Shown: piece after piece, positions 27,150 to 44,200 of the stretch
Numbering within the stretch: the stretch's first letter is position 1
Layout of the letters: every line of letters starts with the position of its first letter
NCBI GenBank assembly: GCA_026545225.1
Contig: CM048852.1
Span: forward strand, 53,637,146-53,701,145
Source: Cornus controversa
Taxonomy: Eukaryota; Streptophyta; Magnoliopsida; Cornales; Cornaceae
Length of the DNA stretch: 64,000 nt
Direction of reading: 5' to 3'
Notes under the pieces: generated by a model
Database searches by the model: none
What the model saw: the letters and a program-made list of their open reading frames with translations, nothing else
What the model was told of the DNA's origin: nothing
Program-made: the position numbers and the translations under genes

Positions 27150-28340
27150 GCCGGGTTGAAATTCAATCACAAATTCACAATAAGTGTGAAGTGTTTCAAC
27201 CAATCACAACATAAATAATAAAAAATAGTATTTCAATCAATTATGGCAACTGTGAAATAATATATATATAAAAAAGTCAATTTCGGAAACACTCTGTCTC
27301 AACCAAGTATAACAATTAGGATAATCTGAAAAAGAAAAAAAAAAACCTCTGGACTATCTCTCATTGACAAAAAAAATTCCTTTTGTAATTTTGTTTTTTT
27401 TTTGGACAAAAAACCCCCTTTCAACTAATGAAAATCTCGAGAGGAGGTAATTGCGACACATATAGAAAATGCGAAAAAGAAAAAATAAAAGTGAACCAAT
27501 CTGTTCACAATAAAAAATAATTTTTTTTAATAAATATTACTTTATTCTTTGAATAATCATGTTATCAAATTTCAATAATACCATTAATCCGTATATTTTG
27601 ATAAATATTTTTATGTTAATTTTAAATCTCTCAAACTTTTAACTTTATCTTTTATAATTGTAAATTTTTACAATTGTTGAATGTTAATGTTCATTTTTAA
27701 TTTTCTCTAAAGAAATTTTATTTATCCTCTAATATTGTATTTTTTTTTTTGAAAAAACATTGAATATTATTATCCTCTAAGAAGTTATTCAATGTTTATT
27801 TTTCAAATAAAAAATAATATTACAATATTAGAGGATAAATAAAATTTCTTTAGAGAAAATTAAAAATAAGCATTAACATTCAACAAATTGCAAAAATATA
27901 CAATTACAAATTATAAGGGATAAAATTAAAAGTTTGGGAGATTTATAATTAACATAAAAATATTTATCAAAATGTATGAATTAATGATATTATTGAATTT
28001 TGATAACATTGTCGTTAAAAGGAAAAAAAAGTAATATTTATTAAATTTTTTATTGTAAAGAGATTGACCCACTTGTTTTTATTTTTTATTTTTCATTTTC
28101 TCTCTTTTTTATATTTGAAGGGACATTTTTGTCATAATTACAAACGAGGTAGGGTTTTCTTGTTAAAAAAAAAAAATACACGAGAGATAGTCCAGAATTT
28201 TTTACAGCTTGCCCAAACAATTATGAAATTAAAAAATTTAATTTGTAGTAATTTTTTAATTTCACAGCGGCTGTGATTGATTGAAACACTTTTATCAACT
28301 CGAGATTATATTTTAACCAATCACAAGAAGTGCGCAGTTT
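27150..28340. mobile_element. ~1.2-kb fold-back (palindromic) element
   Basis: Two arms of roughly 500 bp are inverted copies around a centre near 27775. Matching pairs are: GTGTTTCAACCAATCACA (left, about 27188) with TGTGATTGATTGAAACAC (right, about 28273); CTGGACTATCTCTC (left, about 27350) with GAGAGATAGTCCAG (right, about 28182); and CCTCTAATATTG (about 27725) with CAATATTAGAGG (about 27823). It lies just upstream of the lipin 5' UTR. No coding sequence and no clear target duplication are seen. The central arms (27560-27990) are the best preserved. Confidence 0.8.
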
Positions 28341-28449
28341 CTTTGTCATCCAATCTTCGAAGACAAAAAGCACAAAGGCCAAGAAATTTTACCGAGGAAT
28401 TGAGTATTGACACAAGCCAACGTTAAGATTAGAAAATCCAACATAAGGA

Positions 28450-28667
28450 ACACTACAACACCAGTTTTCTACTTCTAGAGAGAGAGAGTGAGACAAATAT
28501 CAGGAAATTTTATGTATACATTAGTTTCTATATAGAGAGAGAAGACAGAAAAAGAAGAAACAGTAAGAGAGATAATCATATTAGTTTACGGCTGTCAGAT
28601 TCCTCCGTCTTCGTCTATGATCGCTCGAGCACAAAGAGTTTTCTTGGGATTGGCAAAGTTCGATTCT
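28450..28667 (+). other. Lipin 5' UTR exon (predicted)
   Basis: A GTAAGT donor at 28668 and a TTTTTTTTAG acceptor ending at 29025 define a 358-bp 5' UTR intron placed 22 bases before the lipin start codon. The upstream end of the exon is a guess; GAGA-rich sequence at about 28480-28560 suggests the transcription start lies close by. An ATG at 28617 opens a reading frame of 29 codons across the splice that overlaps the lipin start in another frame. Confidence 0.55.
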
Positions 28668-29064
28668 GTAAGTCTTGAAGGGTTCGAATTTCTCATTTAT
28701 TTATCATAATTTAAATTCAGTTCTCATTTTAGTGTAGTTCTTATTTCACATTTTAAGAATTTCTTGCTGTGGACTCATGTTTAAGGGTCGCAGTTCACCT
28801 TGCATGACTTTTAGTTTCTTTGTAAATGCAATCTGCATATGATCACAATATTCATTTTGAATTTCAAATTGCATACAGATATCAAGAAAAGGGACTGAGG
28901 AAATTGAAGAACTCATTATGTTTGATAGAATAATCACTGTTGATATTTTCTTCAGGATATTTCACTGACAATTTATTGGATTCTAAAACACATTAGGGTT
29001 TGGTGGAATTTCCCATTTTTTTTAGGTGAATATTGGTAGATTGACAGATGAATGTGGTTGGTAA
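28617..29064 (+). promoter_or_regulatory. Predicted spliced uORF overlapping the lipin start
   Basis: Joining 28617-28667 (17 codons, MIARAQRVFLGLAKFDS) to 29026-29064 gives 12 more codons and a TAA at 29062-29064. The uORF therefore runs through the lipin ATG at 29048 in a different frame. If the transcript starts upstream of 28617 and uses this splice, ribosomes that initiate here would miss the lipin start, lowering translation. The uATG context is not strong (T at -3). This is inference from predicted splice sites. Confidence 0.4.
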
Positions 29065-32000
29065 ATTTGGGAGCATAATATCTCAAGGTGTATACTCTGT
29101 TGCCACCCCATTTCATCCCTTTGGTGGGGCTGTTGATATAATTGTTGTTCAGCAGCAGGATGGGACGTTTCGCAGCACACCTTGGTACGTTCGGTTCGGT
29201 AAATTTCAGGGTGTTATAAAAGGGGCGGAAAAAATTGTTCGCATAAGTGTTAACGGCGTTGAAGCCAATTTCCATATGTATCTTGATAATTCAGGGGAAG
29301 CATATTTCGTAAAGGAGGTTGTTTCTGGTAAAGACAGTGAAGTGAATGGGATTTTGAAGAATTCAGATAGTCCAGGAGGTATACAAGAGGATAGTATCAT
29401 AAGTGAAACGAATAATATCAATCTTTGTAGACATGAGGATAGTGTTTCTTGTACTGGTGATGTTCAATTGCAAGATGATTGTGTTTCTTTGAGTGTGGAC
29501 AGAATTGAGAGTATGGAATCTGATAGTGAAAGGAGGTTCTATGAATTTCAAGATGCGCAATCCTCACTTGAGGGTTCAATTGAGTTATCAGAATATGGGT
29601 CTAATCTATACGAGAATATAGACAATATGGAGCATTTTGTGGAATCGCAGAATTCTAATTCAGAGGTGATTTTGGTGAGTATAGATGGTCATATACTGAC
29701 AGCTCCCTTCTCCTCATCAGAAAGGAATAATGAGGACGTGCAATTAAGCACACCCCAGTTTCATTTGGGTCCAGGTCAAGGGACTGAATTCTGTGAAGGC
29801 AACACGGAGTTTAGCATGGAAGAAGAGGCATGGACTGCCGATTACTTAGGTGATTTGCACACATCAACACATGAAATTGCTTCCGAAAGTGTTTGTAACA
29901 TAAACAAAGGTAGTAATGCTTCTGGGTTCCAGTTGGAAGTTCGTGAAGGAGACGGGAAACATGTTTATCAAGCTCAAGAAACTTGTAACATTGTAAATCA
30001 GGAAAGAGAGTTCTCCATACATTGCAAATTGGTAGAAGTTTCGGGTAGTATTAAGAGGGAAGATGCTTTTAAGCGCTGTTTGGAGCTATCGGAATTAGCC
30101 ATGCCGTTTGGAAATGCTGATCACCAAGATATGGATATTCCATTGGGGATTCACAAGGATGCAGAAGATTCACAAGAGAAGTCTCCTCTCAGCCTTCTAG
30201 AAGCCAATGAAACTGCAGATGGAGTTCGAATTCATGGCGGGTCATCTCCTTCCAGTTCTGATCCTCATGGCGGCATTTCTCCAGATTTGCAGGTTGAAGT
30301 TGAAGTCACCGAAGAAGTTGCATCAGGTACAGATCATATAGGTTCTTATGGCGTGTCTGTTCATTCTGTTAATAATGATCAAGAACTGGAAGAACAGACT
30401 AGTGTAGCATTAGCAGTCGAAGGGGTACAAAGTAGTGAACGAAGACCTGCTCCTGAAGATGAACATAGCAAAAGTGAGACTGTGGAACCTCTGACCATGC
30501 CTACCAGTGAAGAGGTGAAAAGTGATCCAAGCATAAGTAAGGGCTACCAACTGTCTTTAGTTGTGATCATGGACTTTTGTTGTGTTTCTTACTTTAAAAA
30601 AAAAACTCTTATTTTTCATCTTTCTTATATTTAAAGGGTTTGAGATTTCTCTTTGTGGGAACTTACTTCATGCTGGTATGGGTTTGAGTGCGGCTGCTGA
30701 AGCCTTTGATGCACACCGCATATCTGAGGAAAAATTCAAACTTTCTGCAGCATCAGTGATTAAGAATGAAAACTTAGTTATAAGATCCCAAGAGAGGTAC
30801 TTGCCATGGGATAAAGCTGCTCCTATTGTTCTCGGAGTAGCTGCATTTGGTTTACATTTACCTGTTGAGCCTAAAGATGCAATTCCTGTGGAACAGGAAG
30901 AAACTCCAAATTCCAGGGATGATGATTCGGGAATCACTTCCACTCCTTCTGGGCGTAAATGGAGGCTCTGGCCAATTCCATTCAGAAGGGTTAAAACACT
31001 TGATCATACTAGCAATAATTCGTCTACTGAAGAGGTGTTTGTTGATTCTGAATCTGGCTCACAGAACCAACCTGTAGAACCAACTTTAACATCCCACGGT
31101 AGCAGTGATTCTCCCCACAAGCAACTTAAAAGGACAAATGTCCCCACTACTGAGCAAATAGCATCTTTGAAGCTCAAAGAAGGGCAAAATATGGTGACTT
31201 TCAATTTCTCCACCAGGGTCTTAGGAAGGCAAAAGGTTTATCATTCATTCTACCTATTTAATGCTTGCAGTATGAAGATGATAACCAGCTGATCCGATTC
31301 TCTTCTATTATGATTGCTAAGCCGCATTCTCCTTCAACAGGTCGATGCTCATATTTACTTGTGGAAATGGAACACGCGAATTGTAATTTCAGATGTCGAT
31401 GGAACAATCACCAAGTAAGATATATGACTTTCTCATATGGACTAGGCTGCTAAATATGTTCATTGCAACATGATAGATGAAATAGAAGATACTGCCAATA
31501 GATTAATTTAACACTTCAGTGGGTTTTTTGTACTGCTGTAATACAATATTTAGAAAGATGAATCACCATAGTAGACAGAGGAAGAATGAGTGTGAATCTG
31601 CTACTTATCTGGTAGGCTCGTTTGGATCACGATTGAGATCCCTCAGCTGGAATGTAGTAAGCTAGTTTCAATTTTTTTAAACTCCAGGAAGAGGACAGAT
31701 AGAATAATATCCTTAGAATGCAACTCTTTGTACCATGAGGTTTTTTCTTTCTTTTTTTTATTTTTATTTTTTACTTCACACAAAAAAGAAAAAAAGAGCA
31801 TGGGGGGTATAATAAATCATTTTCCGAATCACCATTTTAACTGAAATTATCATCATTATTTTGGTATTTGGACTGATGCATACCTCATCTTGAATTGTGA
31901 GACTAGCAAAAGTTCCATATTAATGCTTATGATGATTTTTTTACGCTAGTGTTGAGGTGCAGTCGAGATCAGTCTTGGTAGAGTAGTGTAACTTGTCAAG

Positions 32001-35000
32001 ACATGTAGATCAAATGATGCATGTATCATTATTCATTAGCAACAAAGATGGACTTAACAATGAATGACATTGTTGTATAAGATGTAAATGAACTACAACT
32101 TAAAAATAAAAGACACATCCCTTATGGCCATTCTTAGTCTCGAAGCAAGTATGTGCATTCCTGAGCAATACATATTATGGCTGTGAACCTGCAACAATAT
32201 TTGACTTTGCCTTTGTGACTCCCTGTCAAATAGGATTTAATATGACTTGTTCATTATGTTAATGCTTGTTTTTCAGGTCTGATGTTCTTGGTCAGTTCAT
32301 GCCCTTAGTTGGAAAGGATTGGACACAATCTGGGGTAGCTCGACTTTTCTCTGCAATTAAGGTACGTCCTCCCTGTTTCTAATCTTTTGAGGTCCAGAAT
32401 CATGATTGACTTAAATTAATGTTTATAATTGCAATTTATTTCTTCTCTTTTTGCTATTAGGATAAACTAGATCCAGGTGATGCTTCTATCACTATTGTAA
32501 TTGATATATTCTTGTAGAAAGACAAACTATAAGTCCAGCTATGGTTTCTTGAGTAGGATTTTTGGCACAGCTAAGAAGAAAGGATAAATGAGGAAAAACT
32601 TTGTAGGACATTAGAAGTTGCACCAATTAGAGATAGTATGAGGGAGAACCATATAAAATGGTTTGGCCATGTACATGGATGACACCCTCCTTCTAGAATG
32701 AAGGAAAATCACATGGATTGAGATAATGAGAAAAGACAGTGGCGGGTGGTGAGCAGAATGCCGAATGATCATGTGGCTGACCTCAAATAGTTGGTACATG
32801 GCTTGTTATGTGTATATATTTTTTCCAAATTGAAGGAAAGTTGTTTTTTTTTTCTTATTTGGTGATTGCTATCTTAGAAAAAAAGCTTGAAAGAACTTAG
32901 TTTTCATGTCTTATTTCTTATCATGCAAAGTGTTTTTTTCAGATAAGATTATCATGCAAAGAAACAACAAAGCCATTACATTATAGTGAGCAGATTTGTA
33001 CTTTCCTCTTCTTAGTCCCCTCATTGAGTTAGGGGGGCTTAGGAGGCCAAGTGAGTCCCCATTTCACCCTTTAAAAAGTAAGGGTTAGCCAGCTAGTGCC
33101 CTTTGCCTCATCTTTTTCAATATTCCATTTATGTCGTACTAAATTAAACCTGATAAGTTATTTCATGTTATTGCCTATAAAAGGCCGTATGTAAGTGTAT
33201 TATGTAGATTTTGATTATTGATTATCATGATTTTCAGATTTCTCTCCCTTTTCTTCTCCCTAAATATTTCTTGCTTTCTCACCCCCTTTGCCTGTCTGGT
33301 ACATCTATTCTCTCTCTTTTCTCAACCCCTTCTTCTAGCCTCATCTCATCCCCTGCTTTCTTTCTTAACCTGCATCGACTTGGTATCAGAGAAATAGACA
33401 ATGCAGCCCTTTTTTCCCATAGCAGAAGATTCAAACATTAAACAATGCAGCCCTTTTTTCCTAGCAGAAGATTCAAACAGAAGTAGTGGGAATTAAATTA
33501 ACTCTATATAGAGGTGGACAAAATTTTCCACCTATATGACCATTGGAAACGTTATTTCTTTTAGATGAATTGGTTAAAGTATAACATTATGTTCAATTAG
33601 CACCAGTGCTTTTATGTTATTCTATTGCTTATTGATTGGAAAAAATTTCAACAGAAATTAACATAACTGTCTTTTCTCCAACATACAACATAATTCTGTA
33701 GTTTGTACCAATTATTTATTTATTTATTATTTTTTATAGGGTCCATTAGAAAAATAAAAAGTATAGAGAACTTTTCTGAAAGGGTTAATTTGAAATATTT
33801 AAGTGTACACTTGAGATCAAAATGGTCAGGGAGATGCTTGGCTCCGAGATCAAACCAACATTTTGACCTTTGATGAATGAATGATATTACCAACACATAT
33901 ATCATAAACCATACAAAACAACAAAAGAAAAACAAGGTTTTAATTTATTCTTCTCTTCTTCTCCATCATTTGTGAATCCATACCAAACCAATCTCTTCAC
34001 TTAGTGCCCATATTAGTTTTGGAGGGTTTAGAAACACATTTTAAATTTTATTAGCAGTGAGGTTTTGAAACACTTTTAAGTTGAATAAGCAGCAAGGTTA
34101 CTTTTTTCAAATGACTGTGGTATTAAGTTTGCCGCCTAATAGATGAACTACGACTGAATTTATTTAGGAAGCAAATCCAAACTTTGTTATGAAGATCCTA
34201 TTTATGATAAAGAATATCTAGTCACACTTACATCCCAGTATCCCCTATCTCTTGGTGGTTCATGAAGCAGTTAGTTCTATGATCTGGAGAGTTAGAAAAT
34301 TGTCAATATTGCATTTTCTCTTTTCAATACTATTACATAATGCTGAAGAATTGTCTCACCTTTCCTAGAGGTCCATTAATGCAACATTTACCATTAACTT
34401 TAGTACAGATGGACAGAATTCTCAAAATTAGAGTGAATATTAAACCATTCAATGATGTTGGCAGGTTCAGTTTATCAATTAAGCAGTTTGACCTCGGTTT
34501 GGATGGTTCAATACTTCAATACCAATCCGATCATTCCAATCAGTGCCCATATTACTTTTGGAGGCTGTTTAGGGTTTAGAAGCACATCTTAAATTTTATG
34601 AGCAGTAAGGTTAGTGTATCCTGATGACTAAGGTGATAGGTTTGCCACATCATAGAAGAACGGGGATTGGATTTATTGAGTCCAAATTTTGTGATGGAGT
34701 TCCAGCTTCTGATAAAAAATTTCTAGTCACACTTCATCCTGTGGGTACTAGGTATGTGTCAGCACTAATGTTGAGCAAATTTAGTAGTGTAGTAGAAGCC
34801 TGAGGAACTCTTCGAGGAGTCACCATTGTCACCCTCCATCCCTCTCAAGTTTTCCCTGGATCCCCACCTAGGACTACCCCCTTTGATCTCACTTTGTTAT
34901 GATGTGGCCTGAATTTTGTCTTGGCCCGGGTTGCGTTGCGACCCGATTTTGACCCGAAAAATGGAAAAAAATTTATGACCTATTTTTCGCTTACGGGTTT

Positions 35001-35756
35001 TGGACCCTGATTAGGACTCTTGTAGCCCAGTGTATAATGGCATCTAGGGTTTGGAGGGAGAAAGAGAGAGAACACTATAAATCCTTGAAAGAGAGTGAGA
35101 GAACGAGAGCTAGGGTTTAGGGTTGAAACTTGTAATATCCTGATTTTTGCATAGTGAAAACTTTTGCGGGATCTTCGCCGTGGACGTAAGCACATCGCTG
35201 AATCACGTCAAATTCTTGTTTTATGTGTGTGGTGCTTGTTTCGTTTTCTATTGTGTTTCGTGATTGTGCTTGGTTTGTGGCTGTTAGTCGTAACACTCTT
35301 CAATTGGATTAACCCCACCGAATCTTACCTTGGTGTGAAGAACCTGATACCCACACATCCCACTATCTCGTGGTTAGTGATGCAGTTAGTTTTATGATCT
35401 GGAGCGTTAGAAAATTTTCAAGATTGCACTTTTTCTTCTACATTATAACGTAATGCTGAAGAAGTGCTCACCTAATCTAGATGTCCAATTAAAATGACAT
35501 TTACCGCACAGCCTACATTTAAATAAAGATTGATAAAATCATCAATATTACAGTGAATATTAAACCGTTAAATGACAGAGAGATGGAAATATGGATATGG
35601 AGGTTCCTTTCCTTCCTTGCTAGTTGCCAGCATTTTTTCACTTCCTTCTCAATATTTTAATTCTCTTGCAGCAGTTGTAGCATTTACCTGCGGTATTTCT
35701 TCTCAAACAAACATATCCTTCTCTAACGTATGATATTGCTGTAATTTGGTAACCAT

Positions 35757-35793
<37 letters not shown>

Positions 35794-38245
35794 GTGTGCG
35801 CGCATTGATCTTGACAGTTTGATGAGTCAAGAAAGTGGATTGCTCCTGCTAAAACATTTCAGTTTGTTCATTCCCGGTCTGCTCACAGCCTGTATAGTGT
35901 GATATTCCATCAAGTTGTCCACTTATGTTGTCCATTCATTTATCCAGGACATAAGCAGCTAGTACAGATTCATTTTTCTTTTCCTCTATTTTCTTTTTAA
36001 GAAATACACGCACATTGCACACCCATATCTTATCCAGGACCTCCCTCTTGGAGGGTGGTAGGCAAGGAAGCACGGACATGGACACGGGATACAGGTACGA
36101 CACGATACGGATATGGCGATACGAGACATCTCAAAAAAATAGGATACGGACACGGCAATGATACGTCAAATAAATAAATAAATAAAAATATAATATTATA
36201 CATAAAATATTAATTTTTATTCTTCAACCATACAATAAATATAGTTAAAGTAATTATACAAAATATAACAAGTTAAATCCTAGAAATTCACTATTTTTTC
36301 TAATATTCTTTATAATGACCCACTTACTTGAGGGTTTTAAAAATATTTTTGTTTTATTATAAAATGATTCTTATTTTCTAATCTATAAAAATTTTAATAT
36401 TACAATCTCAACCTCATTTTATAGAACAAAAAATTACAAATTTGTCCCAAAAAGTATCCCAGCCGTATTCCAGACGTATCCTGGCGTATCCCAGCCGTAT
36501 CCCCCGCGTATCCTAGCCGTATCCGATATTCAAAAAATAATTTAAAAAAATTAGATACTTAGCCATATCGGACACGTATCCTGGCCGTATTCATATCGGA
36601 TACGTGTCCGATACGGCCACAGGGCTCTTTTTGGAGTATCCATGCTTCATTGGTGGTAGGAGATACCACTCAAACAAATATGCTTTTTTGCCTTAAGGTC
36701 CCCTACTTCGCCAAATCATTGCCACCTTATGCATCCAAAAGAAGGGCCGTCTTCCTTCATACCGTAATCTGCCAGAAATGTTTAATTTTTTTTGCCATCT
36801 ATAGATGTGTCTACTTCCTTAGAGTGGTGTGAGTAACAAATTATGACGTAGTTTAATAATTAGATAATTATGGACACTAATTGTTTTTTATTTTGGATAT
36901 TCCAATTTGCTTCAGTAACATGGTATTGAATATTGAATTCTTCTTTAATGCAGGAGAATGGATATCAGCTTCTGTTTCTGAGTGCACGTGCAATTGTACA
37001 GGCATATCTAACTAGAAGCTTTCTACTCAATCTCAAACAGGTATTAACATTCACCATTCTTTGGAACATAATTATATTGGGCCTATTTTTCCTTGGTTTT
37101 TTTTATAATGATTGAAAATTGTCGGATGTGAACAATAAGGGAACCACTCTATCAATACTTTCTAGCTTAATAAATGAGTAATGGTTGGAATGTAGTTTTT
37201 GATGCAGTGGCATCAATGGTAGTATGGTCTTTTATTTTGAGTTTGGTTTTAGGTCTTTTTAGTTTTTGCTACATTTGGGACAATGTTTATGAGTTGTCTA
37301 TGTTTCACCCTCTACACACAAATTTCGTGGTTAAAAACAATACTAAAATAAGGTGGACAAATCAACAATTTTATTAATTTTGATAGAAAATGGGCACAAT
37401 CCTCTGAAACTCGTTACAAAAAGAAAATATCCTCTGATTCAATCTCCTTTGCAGTTTGGATCCAAGGGTTGCTCGAGCTTGATCTTGAATCAGATTAGAA
37501 CTTCAATGAAGAACGTCACGATTGTGATGTGCTTAGTATTCTTCTTCTTCAGAGCTTTGGAAGTTGGATGAATGTAGAGAGTCCGACAGAGTTTCAGTAT
37601 TCTGTCAGAATCTTCTCCCATTCTCCACCTCTTTACCTCTATTTATAGGCTTCGTAGAGGGGTAAAATTGTAACTTATATCATCCTTGATAATTATCTCA
37701 TTTTTTTATGATAATTATCCTTTATGGTAATTATACATGATTATCCCACGAGCATCCTATCCATTCTCATTCAATCATGGCGGGGGAGCAAGTCAAAATA
37801 GAAAAACTCACATTAGGTTTAGGGAATAAGTGTCAGTGTCGACCTAGCAGAGTGTTTTTGTCGTTGGTGTTCTTTTTGATCTCTACACATTTCACCGCTC
37901 CACCAGAAATTCCCTTTGCCCCTACCATACTCCAGCTTGGCAGTTTCCACCGCCTGTCCAAGGTTGAGCCTTGGGATTTCACAGCGGACTTAAAAAGCCA
38001 CCTACAAACGCTTTACGCCCAATCATTCCGGATAACGCTTGCATCCTTGTATTACCGCGGCTGCTGGCACAGAGTTAGCCGATGCTTATTCCCTGTGGGC
38101 CTTCTAGCCAGATACCGTCATTGCTTTTTCTTTGGGAAAAGAAGTTCACGACCCGTGGGCCTTCTACCTCCATGCGGCATTGCTCAGTCAAGCTTTTGCC
38201 CACTGCGGAAAATTCCCCACTGCTGCCTCCCGTAGGAGTTTGGGT

Positions 38246-38280
<35 letters not shown>

Positions 38281-41200
38281 GGACCAGCTACTGATCATCG
38301 CCTTGGTAAGCTATTGCCTCACCAATTAGCTAATCAGACGTGAGCCCCTCCTCGAGCGGATTCCTCCTTTTGCTCCTTAGCCTACAGGGTATTAGCAGTC
38401 GTTTCCAACTTTTGTTCCCTTCCCAAGGGCAGGTTCTTACGCGTTACTCACCGTCCGCCACTGGAAATGCCATTTCCCGTTCGATTTACATGTGTTAAGC
38501 ATGTCGCCATTGTTCATCCTAAGCTAGGATCAAAGTCTCCATGAGATTCATAGTTGCATTACTTATAGCTTCCTTGTTAGTAGACAAAGCGGATTCAGAG
38601 TTGGCTTTCATTCTAAGGCATAACTTGTATCCATACGCTTCATATTTGCCCCAGAAATATAGCCATCCTTGCCACCGTACATTAATCCCACGAGCCTCTT
38701 ATCCATTCTCATTCAATCACGGCGGGGCAGCAAGTCAAAATGCCTTTGCCCTTCCATCCTGTGGATAGATAGAGAAGGAGGGCAGAGCTTTTGGTTTTTT
38801 CATGTTGTTTAAGAGTTGAACAATGGTTTTTTAATGTTATCAAAAAGTTGAACAATGAAAATAGATGGCAAAAATTGATCAGGTCATCTAGGAACAAGGC
38901 TTAAGTTTACCGGTCTTTTAGGATGCCTCAGTTGCATACATCATTGTACTTCCATTTGACACCTATCGTAATGATAAATGGCTCGTCTCATCTTGACCTT
39001 CTCTTGAATTTTCAAAACTTCTGTCACTCCATCCCTGCAAGGGTAGAGAACCCATCGCTGTCCCGGTTGTGCTACTGGAGGCTCTTGGGAAGTCAGAATA
39101 GGAGAGCACTCATCTTGGGGTGGGCTTACTACTTTGATGCTTTCAGCAGTTATCCGCTCCGCACTTGGCTACCCAGGGTTTACCATGGGCACGATAACTG
39201 GTACACCAGAGGTGCGTCCTTCCCAGTCCTCTCGTACTAGGGAAAGGTCATCTCAATGCTTTAACTCCCACACTGGATATGGACCGAACTGTCTCACGAT
39301 GTTTTAAAACCAACTCATGTATCGCTTTAATGGGCGAATAGCTAACATTTGGAACATACTACAGCCCCAGGTGGCGAAGAGCCGACATCGAGGTGCCAAA
39401 CTTTCCTGTCGATGTGAGCTCTTGGGGATGATCAGCCTGTTATCTCTATAGTAACTTTTATCCGTTGAGTGACGACCCTTCCACTCAGCACTGTCGGATC
39501 ACTAAGGCCGACTTTCGTCCCTGCTCGATGGGTGGGTCTTGCAGTCAAGCTCCCTTCTGCTTTTCCACTCGTGGGCCAATCTCTGTCTGGCCCAAGGAAA
39601 CCATTGCACGCCTCCATTATCTTTTGGGAGGCCTATGCCCCATAGAAACTGTATGCCTAAGACTGTCCCTTCGCCCGTAGGTCCTGACATTGATGGTTCA
39701 GCACCCCCCCCCCCCCCGCCCCGCGGAAGGAGGCCTTTTTTGCCCCACCTAAGTTGCTTAAGAAAGGCCCAAAGCCAATCCCAGGGAACAGTAAAGCTTC
39801 ATAGGATTTTTCTGTCCAGTGCCTAGATCATTACGCCTTTCGTGTGGGTCGGAACTTACCCAACAAGGAATTTCGCTACCTTAGGATTGTTATAGTTATA
39901 GCCGCCGTTCACAGGGACTTCAGTCGCTGACTCCTCTGTCATCAGGTCACCAACTTCCTTGACCTTCTGGCACTCAGTAGATGTTAGCTCCCAGACATGG
40001 TCTTACGACTGCGGAGATCTGGGTTTTTGGTAAACAGTCGCCCAGACTTGATCACTGCGACTCCCTTTGTGCGGGGCACCCCTTCTTTAGAAATTGCGGG
40101 GCTATTTTGCTTCCTTAGAGAGAGTTGTCTCGCGCCCCTAGGTATTCTCTACCTACCCACCGGTGTCGGTTTTGGGTACATACCCTTTTGTTGAAGGTCA
40201 TTTGAGCTTTTCATGGGAGTATGGCATGGGTTACTTTAGCGCCGTAGCACCTGGTTATGTTGTTTTAAAAATGTATAACTCGCAAGTGTTTAAATCTATT
40301 GAAATATAGATTGACAAGAACAAGGTCAAACCCAAGGGAACACTTTGAGAAAAAAAACTAACACAAATTCAAATTAATTTAAAACTAATCTAGTTGAACA
40401 AAATTGGTTGATTTGAGAAATTAAAGTAACATGCAAATAAAATAACACGATTGAAATCAAATAGAGAAAATTATTAAGGTGTCAGATTCCATCACCATTA
40501 AATCCATAAAGCTTCTAATATTCATTTGCTAATTCTCAAACTTAGAGTAGCAATCAAGAAATCAATTTATTGCTTACTCAAGATTTAACAATAAAACACT
40601 ATAAAAATATATTAAAAAGGTAGATTTTCCTTCGCTTAAATAATGTAAGATTGTAAGCATTTTATATATCCAATTTAATGAAAGACAAAAGATCAAAGAT
40701 TTTCACTTTTAAGAAATACAAACCCAAGCTTTGATTAATTATAATACTTTCTAACTACCACATATACATGATATAAATGGTGAAAGAATTATAAAATAAT
40801 TAATCACAAGAAGCGAAAATCATAAGCATTTAAATCATACACATGAGAATCAATTAATGAACAAAATAACTTCACTTCATTAATGGAGGTTTCCTCCTCA
40901 ACCTTAGTTTCACATGGTAGAAGAAGATAACGAATAAATAAAATACATAATGAAATAAAATAAACAAATAAAACCCGGATTGTCTCTGTCTTCTCAACCC
41001 TGGCCTCCACTCGATTTTCCCTCTTTTTATTATACAGAGGTATTCTAGTGTTCCCCAAGTAGAAGAAAATAGGAAAGTGCTGAGAATAAAATATGCCAGA
41101 ATAATTTCATGAAATACAAATATCTTGGGTTTCATGCTAGCTTTTCATAGCCGCTGAGTTTGCTCAATTCCGATATCCGAGTCGAGAATATGGTTAAATT

Positions 41201-44200
41201 ACCATAATTGGTGTAATGTTTGCACATAATATTATGACTACTTTGACACGCGATTTTCACCCCTTAAATGTCAGAATTTGGGCTTCTTTGTGAAATACAA
41301 ATTTGTTCTCCTATGAATAAGCTTTCTGAAAACTTTGGGCTTGCATTAATCCGATACTCGAGTTGAAAGTTATGGCCCAAATAGTAAGGCTGTGCAGAGA
41401 AGTCGTGGGCTTTATATATGTTGAATTTGGGTCTTTTTCCACAAACATCTCCATAAACCTAAAAAGACACAAAACAACATTTATTAAATAAAATAATATA
41501 AAATAAATTACTAACAAATATAATTTTGAAGGTTTATTGTGCCAGAATTATGCACTTTTCACCTGGTACTCGAACATTGGCTCAAGGCATTTTCTCTACC
41601 CCTTCTCACCTTGAAAAAGCAGGGTCACCTTACGTCCTTGAACCGATAACCATCTTTCGGCTAACCTAGCCTCCTCCATCCCTAGGGACCAACAAGGGGT
41701 AGTACCGGAATATTCACTTGTCCATCGACCACACCTTTTGGCCTGATCTTAGGCCCTGACTCACCGTCCATGGACAAAGCTTGCAGAGGAACTTTAGGTT
41801 TTCGGGGCATTGGATTCTCACTAGTGTCCATTTAAAATTTGAATGTTGGGAGATTTTCTCTCTTAAAAAAATGTGATAAATTAAATTGGACCCACTACAA
41901 AATATGAGTCATGGGTTAACTTAAATTATCCAATTGGCCTAAGTCTATTTTCATGGATCAACTCAAATTATCCAACTAGTCCAAACCCACTTTCATGGGT
42001 TAAATTAAATTACTCAATAAGCCCCGACTCACTTAAAAAAAGGGTCAAAGAATAATTATGTATAATTATCATGAAGGATAATTATCATAAATAAATGAGA
42101 TAATTATCAAGGATGATATAATTTACAATTTTACCCCTCTATGAGCCTATAAATAGAGGTAGAGAGGTGAAGAATGGGAGAGGACTTCTGATTTAGTACT
42201 GAAGTTTTGTCGGACTTTACATTCATCCAACTTCCAAATCTCTGAAAAAGAACACTTAGCTCATCACAATGGTGCCATTCTTCGTTGAAGTTCTAACCCG
42301 ATTCATGATCAAGCTCGAGCAAACCCTTGGATCCAAACCGCAAAGGAGATTAAATAAGAAGATATTTTCTTTTTTAAAGAGTTACAGATTTGCTATCTAA
42401 ATTAATAAAATTGTTGATTTGTCCACCTTATTTTAGTTTTTTTTTTCACCCAAAATTTGTGTGTACAAATTTCTAGCACGCCCGGTGGGACCCCTCCGCC
42501 TCTTATCTCTTTCTCCTACATCATACCTTCAGGACTTCTTGTCGTCAGAATCTATGGCTCCTCCCAAACTACAAGCAAGAAAGCTCCAAAAGACATGGCT
42601 GCCGCAATCCTCCGGTGTTGGACCATTTGAAGAATGCCCCATTTGAGTGGGACCAAGCTTGTCAAAATGCTTTTGATAGTATCAAGAAATACCGTCTCAA
42701 TCCTCCGGTGTTGGGAGTATTGAAAAGCTGCTTATACTTTACATTGTTGTGCAAGAAGAATCACTTGGTGCCCCTCTTGCACAAAATAATGAAAAACTCA
42801 AAGAGGTGGCCTTATACTGCTTAAGTTGTAGGCTTACGGTAACTGAGCTGAAGTACCCTCCAATTGAAAAAACATGTCTCATATTAGTTTTCGCCTCTAA
42901 GAAATTGAGGCATTATTTTCTGGCTCATTCAATACATCCTTCTCCTTGCAAACCCTAGGCCATTATGATCACTCTCTATGATTCCCTAGTGGTGCAGTTG
43001 GTCTAAGCTCCTGCATTCACTTTTTTTTTTTCTTCTTTTCAGTCTTGATGGTGACACTACCATCCTAAGAGAACAACATGAGCTAAAACACAACTGGTTA
43101 ATTGCTGCAGGATGGGAAAGCTTTACCCAATGGACCTGTTGTTATTTCACCTGATGGTCTATTTCCCTCATTGTACCGCGAAGGTGAGGTCCTAATCTAC
43201 ATTAAATTGCTTTAGCTTGTATAAATAATCATGCATAACGGTTGTTTATGCTTCTAAGGAAAAATCATGATTTCTTTCTGATTGTTAATCGATCATCATG
43301 TGATCTTTTTCTTTTGTTATGCTATTAATACATATCAAAGAGAAATAGGGATGCTGAAACATTTTTGATAAAATGCACAAATCTCAGGCAGATCGAAAAA
43401 ACTTGCACTGCTACTAAGTTAACTTTGAATTAACTTTATCATCATTTGTTGTCTCTAATGACAAGTTTGTATATGCATATGATAGATTTACATTAATTAA
43501 TATTTGAAAACCCTATGAGAAATGGGTTTGAATTTAATGTGTACATTTGTTATGTTAAGCATGACTGCATATTGGTCTCAGGTCTCTCCATTAGTGAAAT
43601 TGGGTTCTATTACATGAATCATTTTCTAAGTTCTGCTCTATCGAAAGCTGTAACTTAAGTTAAATCACACACTATGTTCTTTCCTTGCTATCTCGATTCT
43701 TCTCCTTCCCACACAACTTCCTCATTGATGCAGTTGCTTAAATTCGTTAAAGATGACCAACTTCCTCATTGATACAGTTGCTTAGATTCGTTAAATATGG
43801 TCAAACCATCTTAGTTGCGTACTTCAACTCTCATAAAGTCGTAATTATTCATAATTTATATTTCTCTTTCTATCACACATCCATGCTAACATCCTGAATT
43901 TGACCACACATTTTATAAATATGCTGTTTCTAAGGCAGCGTTCACTAACGGAAAACACTTTGTGTTTTTTGTTGTCAACCTCTAAAGAGGTAAAAATAAA
44001 AATAAAAATGATGTTTATTAATTTGTTTTTGTTTTTTCATTATAGAAAATACTTTTCCTTTTTGTAAAGAAAAGAATAAACATAAAAAAGATGTTTTCAC
44101 CATTTTTTTACTGTAGCGGCAGAAGTGTTTTTCGACTACTGCAGCGGAACTATCGGATAAGATTTCAAGTGATTGCCTTCAGATAGCGCCTTGCCCATCT

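Follow-up and report, generated by a model that had tools for sequence, protein, structure and literature searches.

Rearranged NUPTs, their colocation with transposable elements, their position in introns, end joining at breaks, and later transposon insertions have all been described, as outlined in PMC7037861, and mosaic plastid-mitochondrial insertions carry end-joining signatures, according to the outline given in PMC6215612. In the mouse, retrotransposon sequence is captured at double-strand breaks induced in zygotes, as summarized in PMC4516963. The locus reported here, from Cornus controversa, is a complex NUPT in an intron and, as such, a repair scar of a known kind, well resolved in this case. 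Like the complex NUPTs outlined so far, it consists of several pieces in nonplastid order, is intronic and associated with transposable elements, has few bases in common at its joints, shows C>T-rich decay, and carries a later transposon inside. It departs from that outline in two respects: the break occurred within an older LTR, and the insertion is attached at its far end to another LTR of this subfamily, which is in the opposed orientation. The likeness to the mouse case, as summarized in PMC4516963, lies in the ligation of foreign DNA pieces into a break; there, however, the breaks were induced in an animal, whereas here the locus is an old one in a plant, with an element of the same family already at the site.

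With the remnant of an LTR retrotransposon, the locus has in common the LTR ends, a primer-binding-site-like sequence, and an RNase H remnant, but the LTRs are opposed and unequal, a target duplication is lacking, the interior is almost gone, and plastid DNA lies in between. Among the titles and abstract openings listed in a literature search, none concerned plastid DNA between opposed LTRs, from which we do not claim absence from print. While the general view is unchanged by this finding, the locus documents the entry of plastid DNA through a break in a retrotransposon, as well as a route to opposed LTRs that requires no unusual retrotransposition.

Layout of the insertion in the lipin intron

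The window, i.e., the whole 64,000-nucleotide stretch of DNA that was analyzed, corresponds to C8:53637146-53701145 of an assembly of 772 Mb in 61 contigs. A reading of the sequence by itself (the original prediction) had placed plastid rDNA between two LTR copies in an intron of a lipin gene. The intron location was borne out, with the flanking exons (36954-37040 and 43111-43183) joining in frame and, once joined, matching PF08235 (LNS2; E = 8.8e-18). From left to right, the complex consists of host sequence, a minus-strand LTR fragment, plastid DNA, a plus-strand LTR, a primer-binding-site-like sequence, an RNase H remnant, and, again, host sequence. The features are as follows (positions are those of the window).

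36954-37040, plus strand: lipin exon upstream of the intron (29 residues read, in frame with the next exon; PF08235 LNS2)
37041-43110, plus strand: lipin intron, GT-AG, containing the whole complex (splice sites, in-frame exons)
37306-37310, plus strand: CACCC, host sequence bordering the left LTR where it was inserted (C4 paralog intron aligned exactly to 37310; same junction in C10)
37311-37746, minus strand: left LTR fragment, the 3' part of an LTR with the 5' part missing (alignments with the right LTR and the C10 LTR)
37743-37828, minus strand: plastid piece P1, repeating the end of P2 (57-nucleotide repeat with 38685-38741, 93%)
~37829-38741, minus strand: plastid piece P2, 5' part of the 16S rRNA and upstream spacer (Rfam SSU; matches to plastid-like fragments and cyanobacterial rDNA)
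38739-40255, minus strand: first part of plastid piece P3, 3' half of the 23S rRNA (Rfam LSU; matches to plastid-like fragments)
40256-41559, no strand assigned: later insertion of a high-copy repeat of ~1.3 kb (genome copies; 8-bp duplication)
41560-41824, minus strand: P3 continued, 23S rRNA (plastid-like fragments L035, L043, and L053 run uninterrupted across the insertion point)
41825-42467, plus strand: right LTR, with an inferred 5' end and a firm 3' end (starts and ends of family LTRs; alignment with the left and C10 LTRs)
42474-42491, plus strand: primer-binding-site-like sequence, TAGCACGCCCGGTGGGAC (also present at this position behind 7 of the 18 related LTR ends listed)
42629-42938, plus strand: remnant of pol (RNase H region), interrupted by stops and changes of frame (genome matches, Pfam)
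~42937-43110, plus strand: host intron resumes (alignment with C4, which places the insertion site ~6 bp earlier)
43111-43183, plus strand: next lipin exon (in-frame join; PF08235)

Both host flanks were located with the help of a lipin paralog on C4. On the left, local alignment with the paralog's intron halts exactly at 37310. For the right flank, the C4 flanks were joined around an insertion in that intron before alignment; the resulting alignment begins at 42937, a point 6 bp beyond the insertion site, and its weak first part (59 columns), which was reached by 18 of 2,000 single-base shuffles, continues into a stronger part. The C4 insertion, located in the intron of this paralog (L071) that is equivalent to window positions 37041-43110, contains, between TATAT repeats, a primer site (TGGTATCAGAGC) as well as sequence resembling 5S, and it is similar to a Cassandra element.

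The predicted opposed orientation of the two LTR copies was confirmed: aligned with the reverse complement of the right copy, the left fragment was matched over its whole length (37313-37744, minus strand, to 42052-42465, plus strand; 434 columns, 85.5% identity, E = 1.9e-136). Also as predicted, plastid sequence begins directly at the inner edge of the left LTR, the two overlapping by 4 bp at the joint (ATCC, 37743-37746), with the LTR read from the C10 copy and the plastid sequence from 38685; in the right LTR, the equivalent bases are ATTC. At the point where the left LTR breaks off, the LTR of a duplicate on C10, described below, is continuous.

On the right, the LTR had been thought to start at 41844, 18 bp away from the plastid DNA. 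From 41825, however, the window reads TGTCCATTTAAAATTTG, resembling the LTR starts in two related copies, L011 and L015 (TGTAGACA(C/T)TAAAATTT), with a looser likeness in L004 and L006. Judging from this resemblance, the right LTR most likely starts at 41825 instead, in a region (its first 58 bp) that aligns poorly with the family. Since the 18 bp are, then, probably the LTR's own start, the plastid DNA would touch the LTR end without a spacer; an origin of these bases as filler was rejected on the basis of the same likeness, although pairwise alignments are weak there. Past the 3' end, 18 related LTR ends were listed, of which 7 are followed by the primer-binding-site-like sequence and 11 by unrelated flank; the strict pattern is present in L005 and L016. 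The pol remnant matched PF17917 (E = 5.6e-10) and PF17919 (E = 6.2e-10) and has 39 other genome matches at 80 to 82%, most of which stop at query base 469 to 472, i.e., window position 42936-42939. On the basis of these ends and the C4 host alignment, we moved the end of the element from 42957, where it had been placed, to ~42938. We take the element to be of the Ty3 type, Pfam giving RNase H only. As for the hallmarks of an LTR retrotransposon, a primer-binding site follows the 5' LTR (42474-42491) and pol with RNase H is represented by the remnant, while the LTRs are opposed instead of direct. No target-site duplication was found, the left LTR being flanked by CACCC and the right LTR by plastid DNA.

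Plastid DNA and the repeat inside it

The ~2.8 kb of plastid rDNA announced between the LTRs is indeed there. Plastid-type rRNA matches above the Rfam gathering scores were found on the minus strand for SSU (37733-38545) and LSU (38910-40110), and further 23S sequence was found at 41562-41827. The plastid DNA is made up of three pieces, whose order is permuted but whose rRNA operon lies on the minus strand throughout; P1 presumably represents the trnV-16S spacer, and we take the first part of P3 to include, additionally, 4.5S and the 4.5S-5S spacer. Bases common to both sides of the joints are ATCC on the left, TGT on the right, and, possibly, AAT between P2 and P3, all of them so short that they may be due to chance.

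The best matches to the plastid segment in a plasmid collection were cyanobacterial (78 to 79%). No plastome reference was found with an exact 31-base pattern (0 matches in viral contigs and genome contigs), and among the 40 of 172 candidates scored in a plastid search of the same genome, all but the window were fragments. Changes in the window were therefore polarized with 29 plastid-like loci of the same genome (L032 to L060) and two cyanobacterial rDNAs. Of the 2,362 sites that could be assessed, 105 carried changes specific to the window, among them 68 C>T or G>A changes and 29 transversions; this is a conservative count, as any window base present in a polarizing source was left uncounted; sites with fewer than two agreeing sources were excluded. 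With a plastid origin (Rfam SSU and LSU), a nuclear location (a lipin intron on a chromosome-size contig, with flanks aligned to C4), and decay rich in C>T and G>A, the segment has the properties of a NUPT. Elsewhere in the genome, 12 of the listed matches to a piece of plastid 16S (query 547-675) lie at C5:39766653-40204889 in six pairs with a spacing of ~310 bp, a pattern suggestive of local multiplication of this piece.

The plastid segment was originally taken to extend from one LTR to the other, which stands for the ~2.8 kb but not for 40256-41559, a nonplastid repeat of ~1.3 kb flanked by an 8-bp duplication, CACCTGGT (40248-40255 and 41560-41567). At least 12 other near-full-length copies of this repeat, at 82 to 86%, were found in the genome (40 of 2,270 candidates scored). 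An A is present in each copy of the duplication at a position where three plastid-like fragments (L035, L043, and L053) have a G, so that the repeat probably landed after decay had begun.

The C10 duplicate and the order of events

A truncated duplicate of the lipin gene on C10, ~9 kb in length, matches window positions ~28255-37313; at G000:C10:45135500-45162724 (L073 to L076), it stops at the same LTR, and C10 yielded none of the later lipin exons. Close to where the duplicated region starts on the left, the window contains a large imperfect palindrome (27464-28101; 81% over 673 columns), which belongs to a repeat with many copies on both strands. The duplicate shares the window's host-LTR junction, and its LTR, despite a loss of ~300 bp internally, runs on past the point where the window switches to plastid DNA. 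In the 13 kb of C10 examined on the LTR side, no match to the plastid, pol, or right-host sequence of the window was found at an E value of ≤0.001, and only chance-level matches appeared at E values of up to 1. Because the junction is common to both copies and the C10 LTR continues through the break, the sequence comparison places the insertion of the LTR, unbroken at that point, before the duplication and the arrival of the plastid DNA after it, in the window copy.

The C8 and C10 copies of the host intron differ by a K80 distance of 0.068 ± 0.006 over 2,368 sites. Transversions amount to 1.2% in the plastid DNA, on one branch, versus 1.4% per branch in the host (P = 0.59), and this absence of a difference points to capture near or after the duplication. 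The succession of LTR insertion, gene duplication, plastid capture, and later repeat insertion is thus legible from a single genome.

Two scenarios were rejected. Formation of the complex at the original insertion, by one-ended integration with plastid capture, would account for the exact LTR end and the host flank but not for a C10 LTR that is continuous through the break. If, on the other hand, plastid DNA had simply dropped into one LTR, the remainder of that LTR should lie beyond it in the same orientation, which it does not. The original prediction had proposed insertion of plastid DNA at a break in an inverted LTR pair. Of this proposal, the break inside an LTR survives, in view of the continuous C10 LTR and the 4 bp in common at the joint, while a preexisting pair probably never existed, the left LTR being an ordinary insertion that was present before the C10 duplication.

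Origin of the opposed LTRs

The right LTR is either the other LTR of the same element, turned round during repair, or part of a sister element. Among the copies scored (40 of 1,271 and 40 of 2,080 candidates), the left and right LTRs are each other's best nonself matches, at 483 bits; the C10 copy ranks next (right LTR, 254 bits; left LTR, 233 bits and 75%). Over all columns, the K80 distance between left and right was 0.110 ± 0.017, compared to the 0.068 ± 0.006 of the host intron (Fisher P = 0.012 on substitutions and 0.12 on transversions alone), and this higher value fits an origin of both LTRs in a single insertion that preceded the duplication. In the clean columns shared by the left, right, and C10 LTRs, the distances were 0.062, 0.079, and 0.085, with errors of 0.02 to 0.03 that leave their order unsettled. 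A tree of 27 copies, for which 24 of 27 further LTR loci were used (L017, L024, and L027 were left out), grouped the left, right, and C10 LTRs with a UFBoot value of 90 but a FastTree value of only 0.36. Within it, left and right were weakly joined to the exclusion of C10 (UFBoot, 84; FastTree, 0.67), which, at face value, would date their split to after the duplication; in this tree, poorly aligned ends inflate the length of the C10 branch.

In the reading that we favor, at a probability of roughly one in two, a broken retrotransposon took up plastid DNA during end-joining repair, and part of this element was probably flipped in the process. Double-strand breaks at two places, within the left LTR and at the outer edge of the other LTR of this element, would have freed its middle, which would then have been reinserted in reverse by microhomology-mediated end joining. 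Plastid fragments would have been trapped in the left joint, while the 3' part of the element would have been lost at the right joint; most of the interior would have been deleted then or later, and the 1.3-kb repeat would have landed in the plastid DNA. Whereas the order of LTR insertion, duplication, and plastid capture follows from C10, the flip of the element's middle is something that we infer. In its favor are the junction shared with C10 and the continuous LTR there, the mutual best LTR matches among the copies scored (483 versus 254 and 233 bits), and the host flanks, which are intact as far as the insertion site on the left and, on the right, up to ~6 bp from it, where the pol remnant stops. 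The ATCC and TGT at the joints, though short, are as expected of microhomology-mediated end joining, and a single break at the outer edge would explain both the contact between LTR end and plastid DNA and the pol-host joint. Against the flip, a break exactly at the LTR edge is a coincidence that integration does not need, and no target duplication ties the two LTRs together. The transversion result (P = 0.12), the unsettled clean-column distances, and the weak left-right grouping without C10 argue in the same direction. Additionally, the missing 5' part of the left LTR, which a flip would place at the right end, is absent there, so that its loss must be assumed.

Nested insertions are less likely. 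Plastid DNA would have been captured at a break in an old minus-strand LTR, after which a sister element of the same small subfamily would have integrated, in the plus orientation, into that plastid DNA, and a deletion would have removed the sister's 3' end, the remaining plastid DNA, and the rest of the old element. A right LTR that seems complete and is followed by a primer-binding site is what normal integration would leave, and insertion of another repeat shows that this very plastid DNA has served as a target. The deletion, however, would have had to stop within ~6 bp of the old element's edge, and the nearest sister would have landed 4 kb away by chance, as no scored copy (40 of 1,271 and 40 of 2,080 candidates) is as close to either LTR.

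It seems unlikely that a solo LTR was broken and the gap filled by plastid DNA already ligated to a linear retrotransposon cDNA of the same subfamily. Such an event would mean two extrachromosomal invaders in one break, with an LTR terminus fused to plastid 23S sequence. The exact LTR terminus, joined to plastid DNA with TGT in common, is what a cDNA end would give, the loss of host sequence on the right is small, and breaks induced in mouse zygotes have been described to take up retrotransposon sequence, as summarized in PMC4516963. An active family should, however, leave close siblings, of which there were none among the scored copies (40 of 1,271 and 40 of 2,080 candidates); moreover, no target duplication marks the old element as a solo LTR, and the C10 LTR lacks such a flank as well. 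Finally, an assembly chimera of plastid and nuclear reads is hardly credible given the decay of the plastid DNA (105 changes specific to the window in 2,362 assessable sites, with C>T or G>A accounting for 68), the rearranged rDNA, and the repeat inserted within it, both duplication copies of which have an A where the three plastid-like fragments have a G.

Whatever produced the opposed LTRs, we regard the complex as a repair scar carried in an intron rather than a functional device, with no function indicated. Folded together in one calculation, performed without a shuffled control, the two LTR arms gave -535 kcal/mol and could, on paper, pair as a hairpin.
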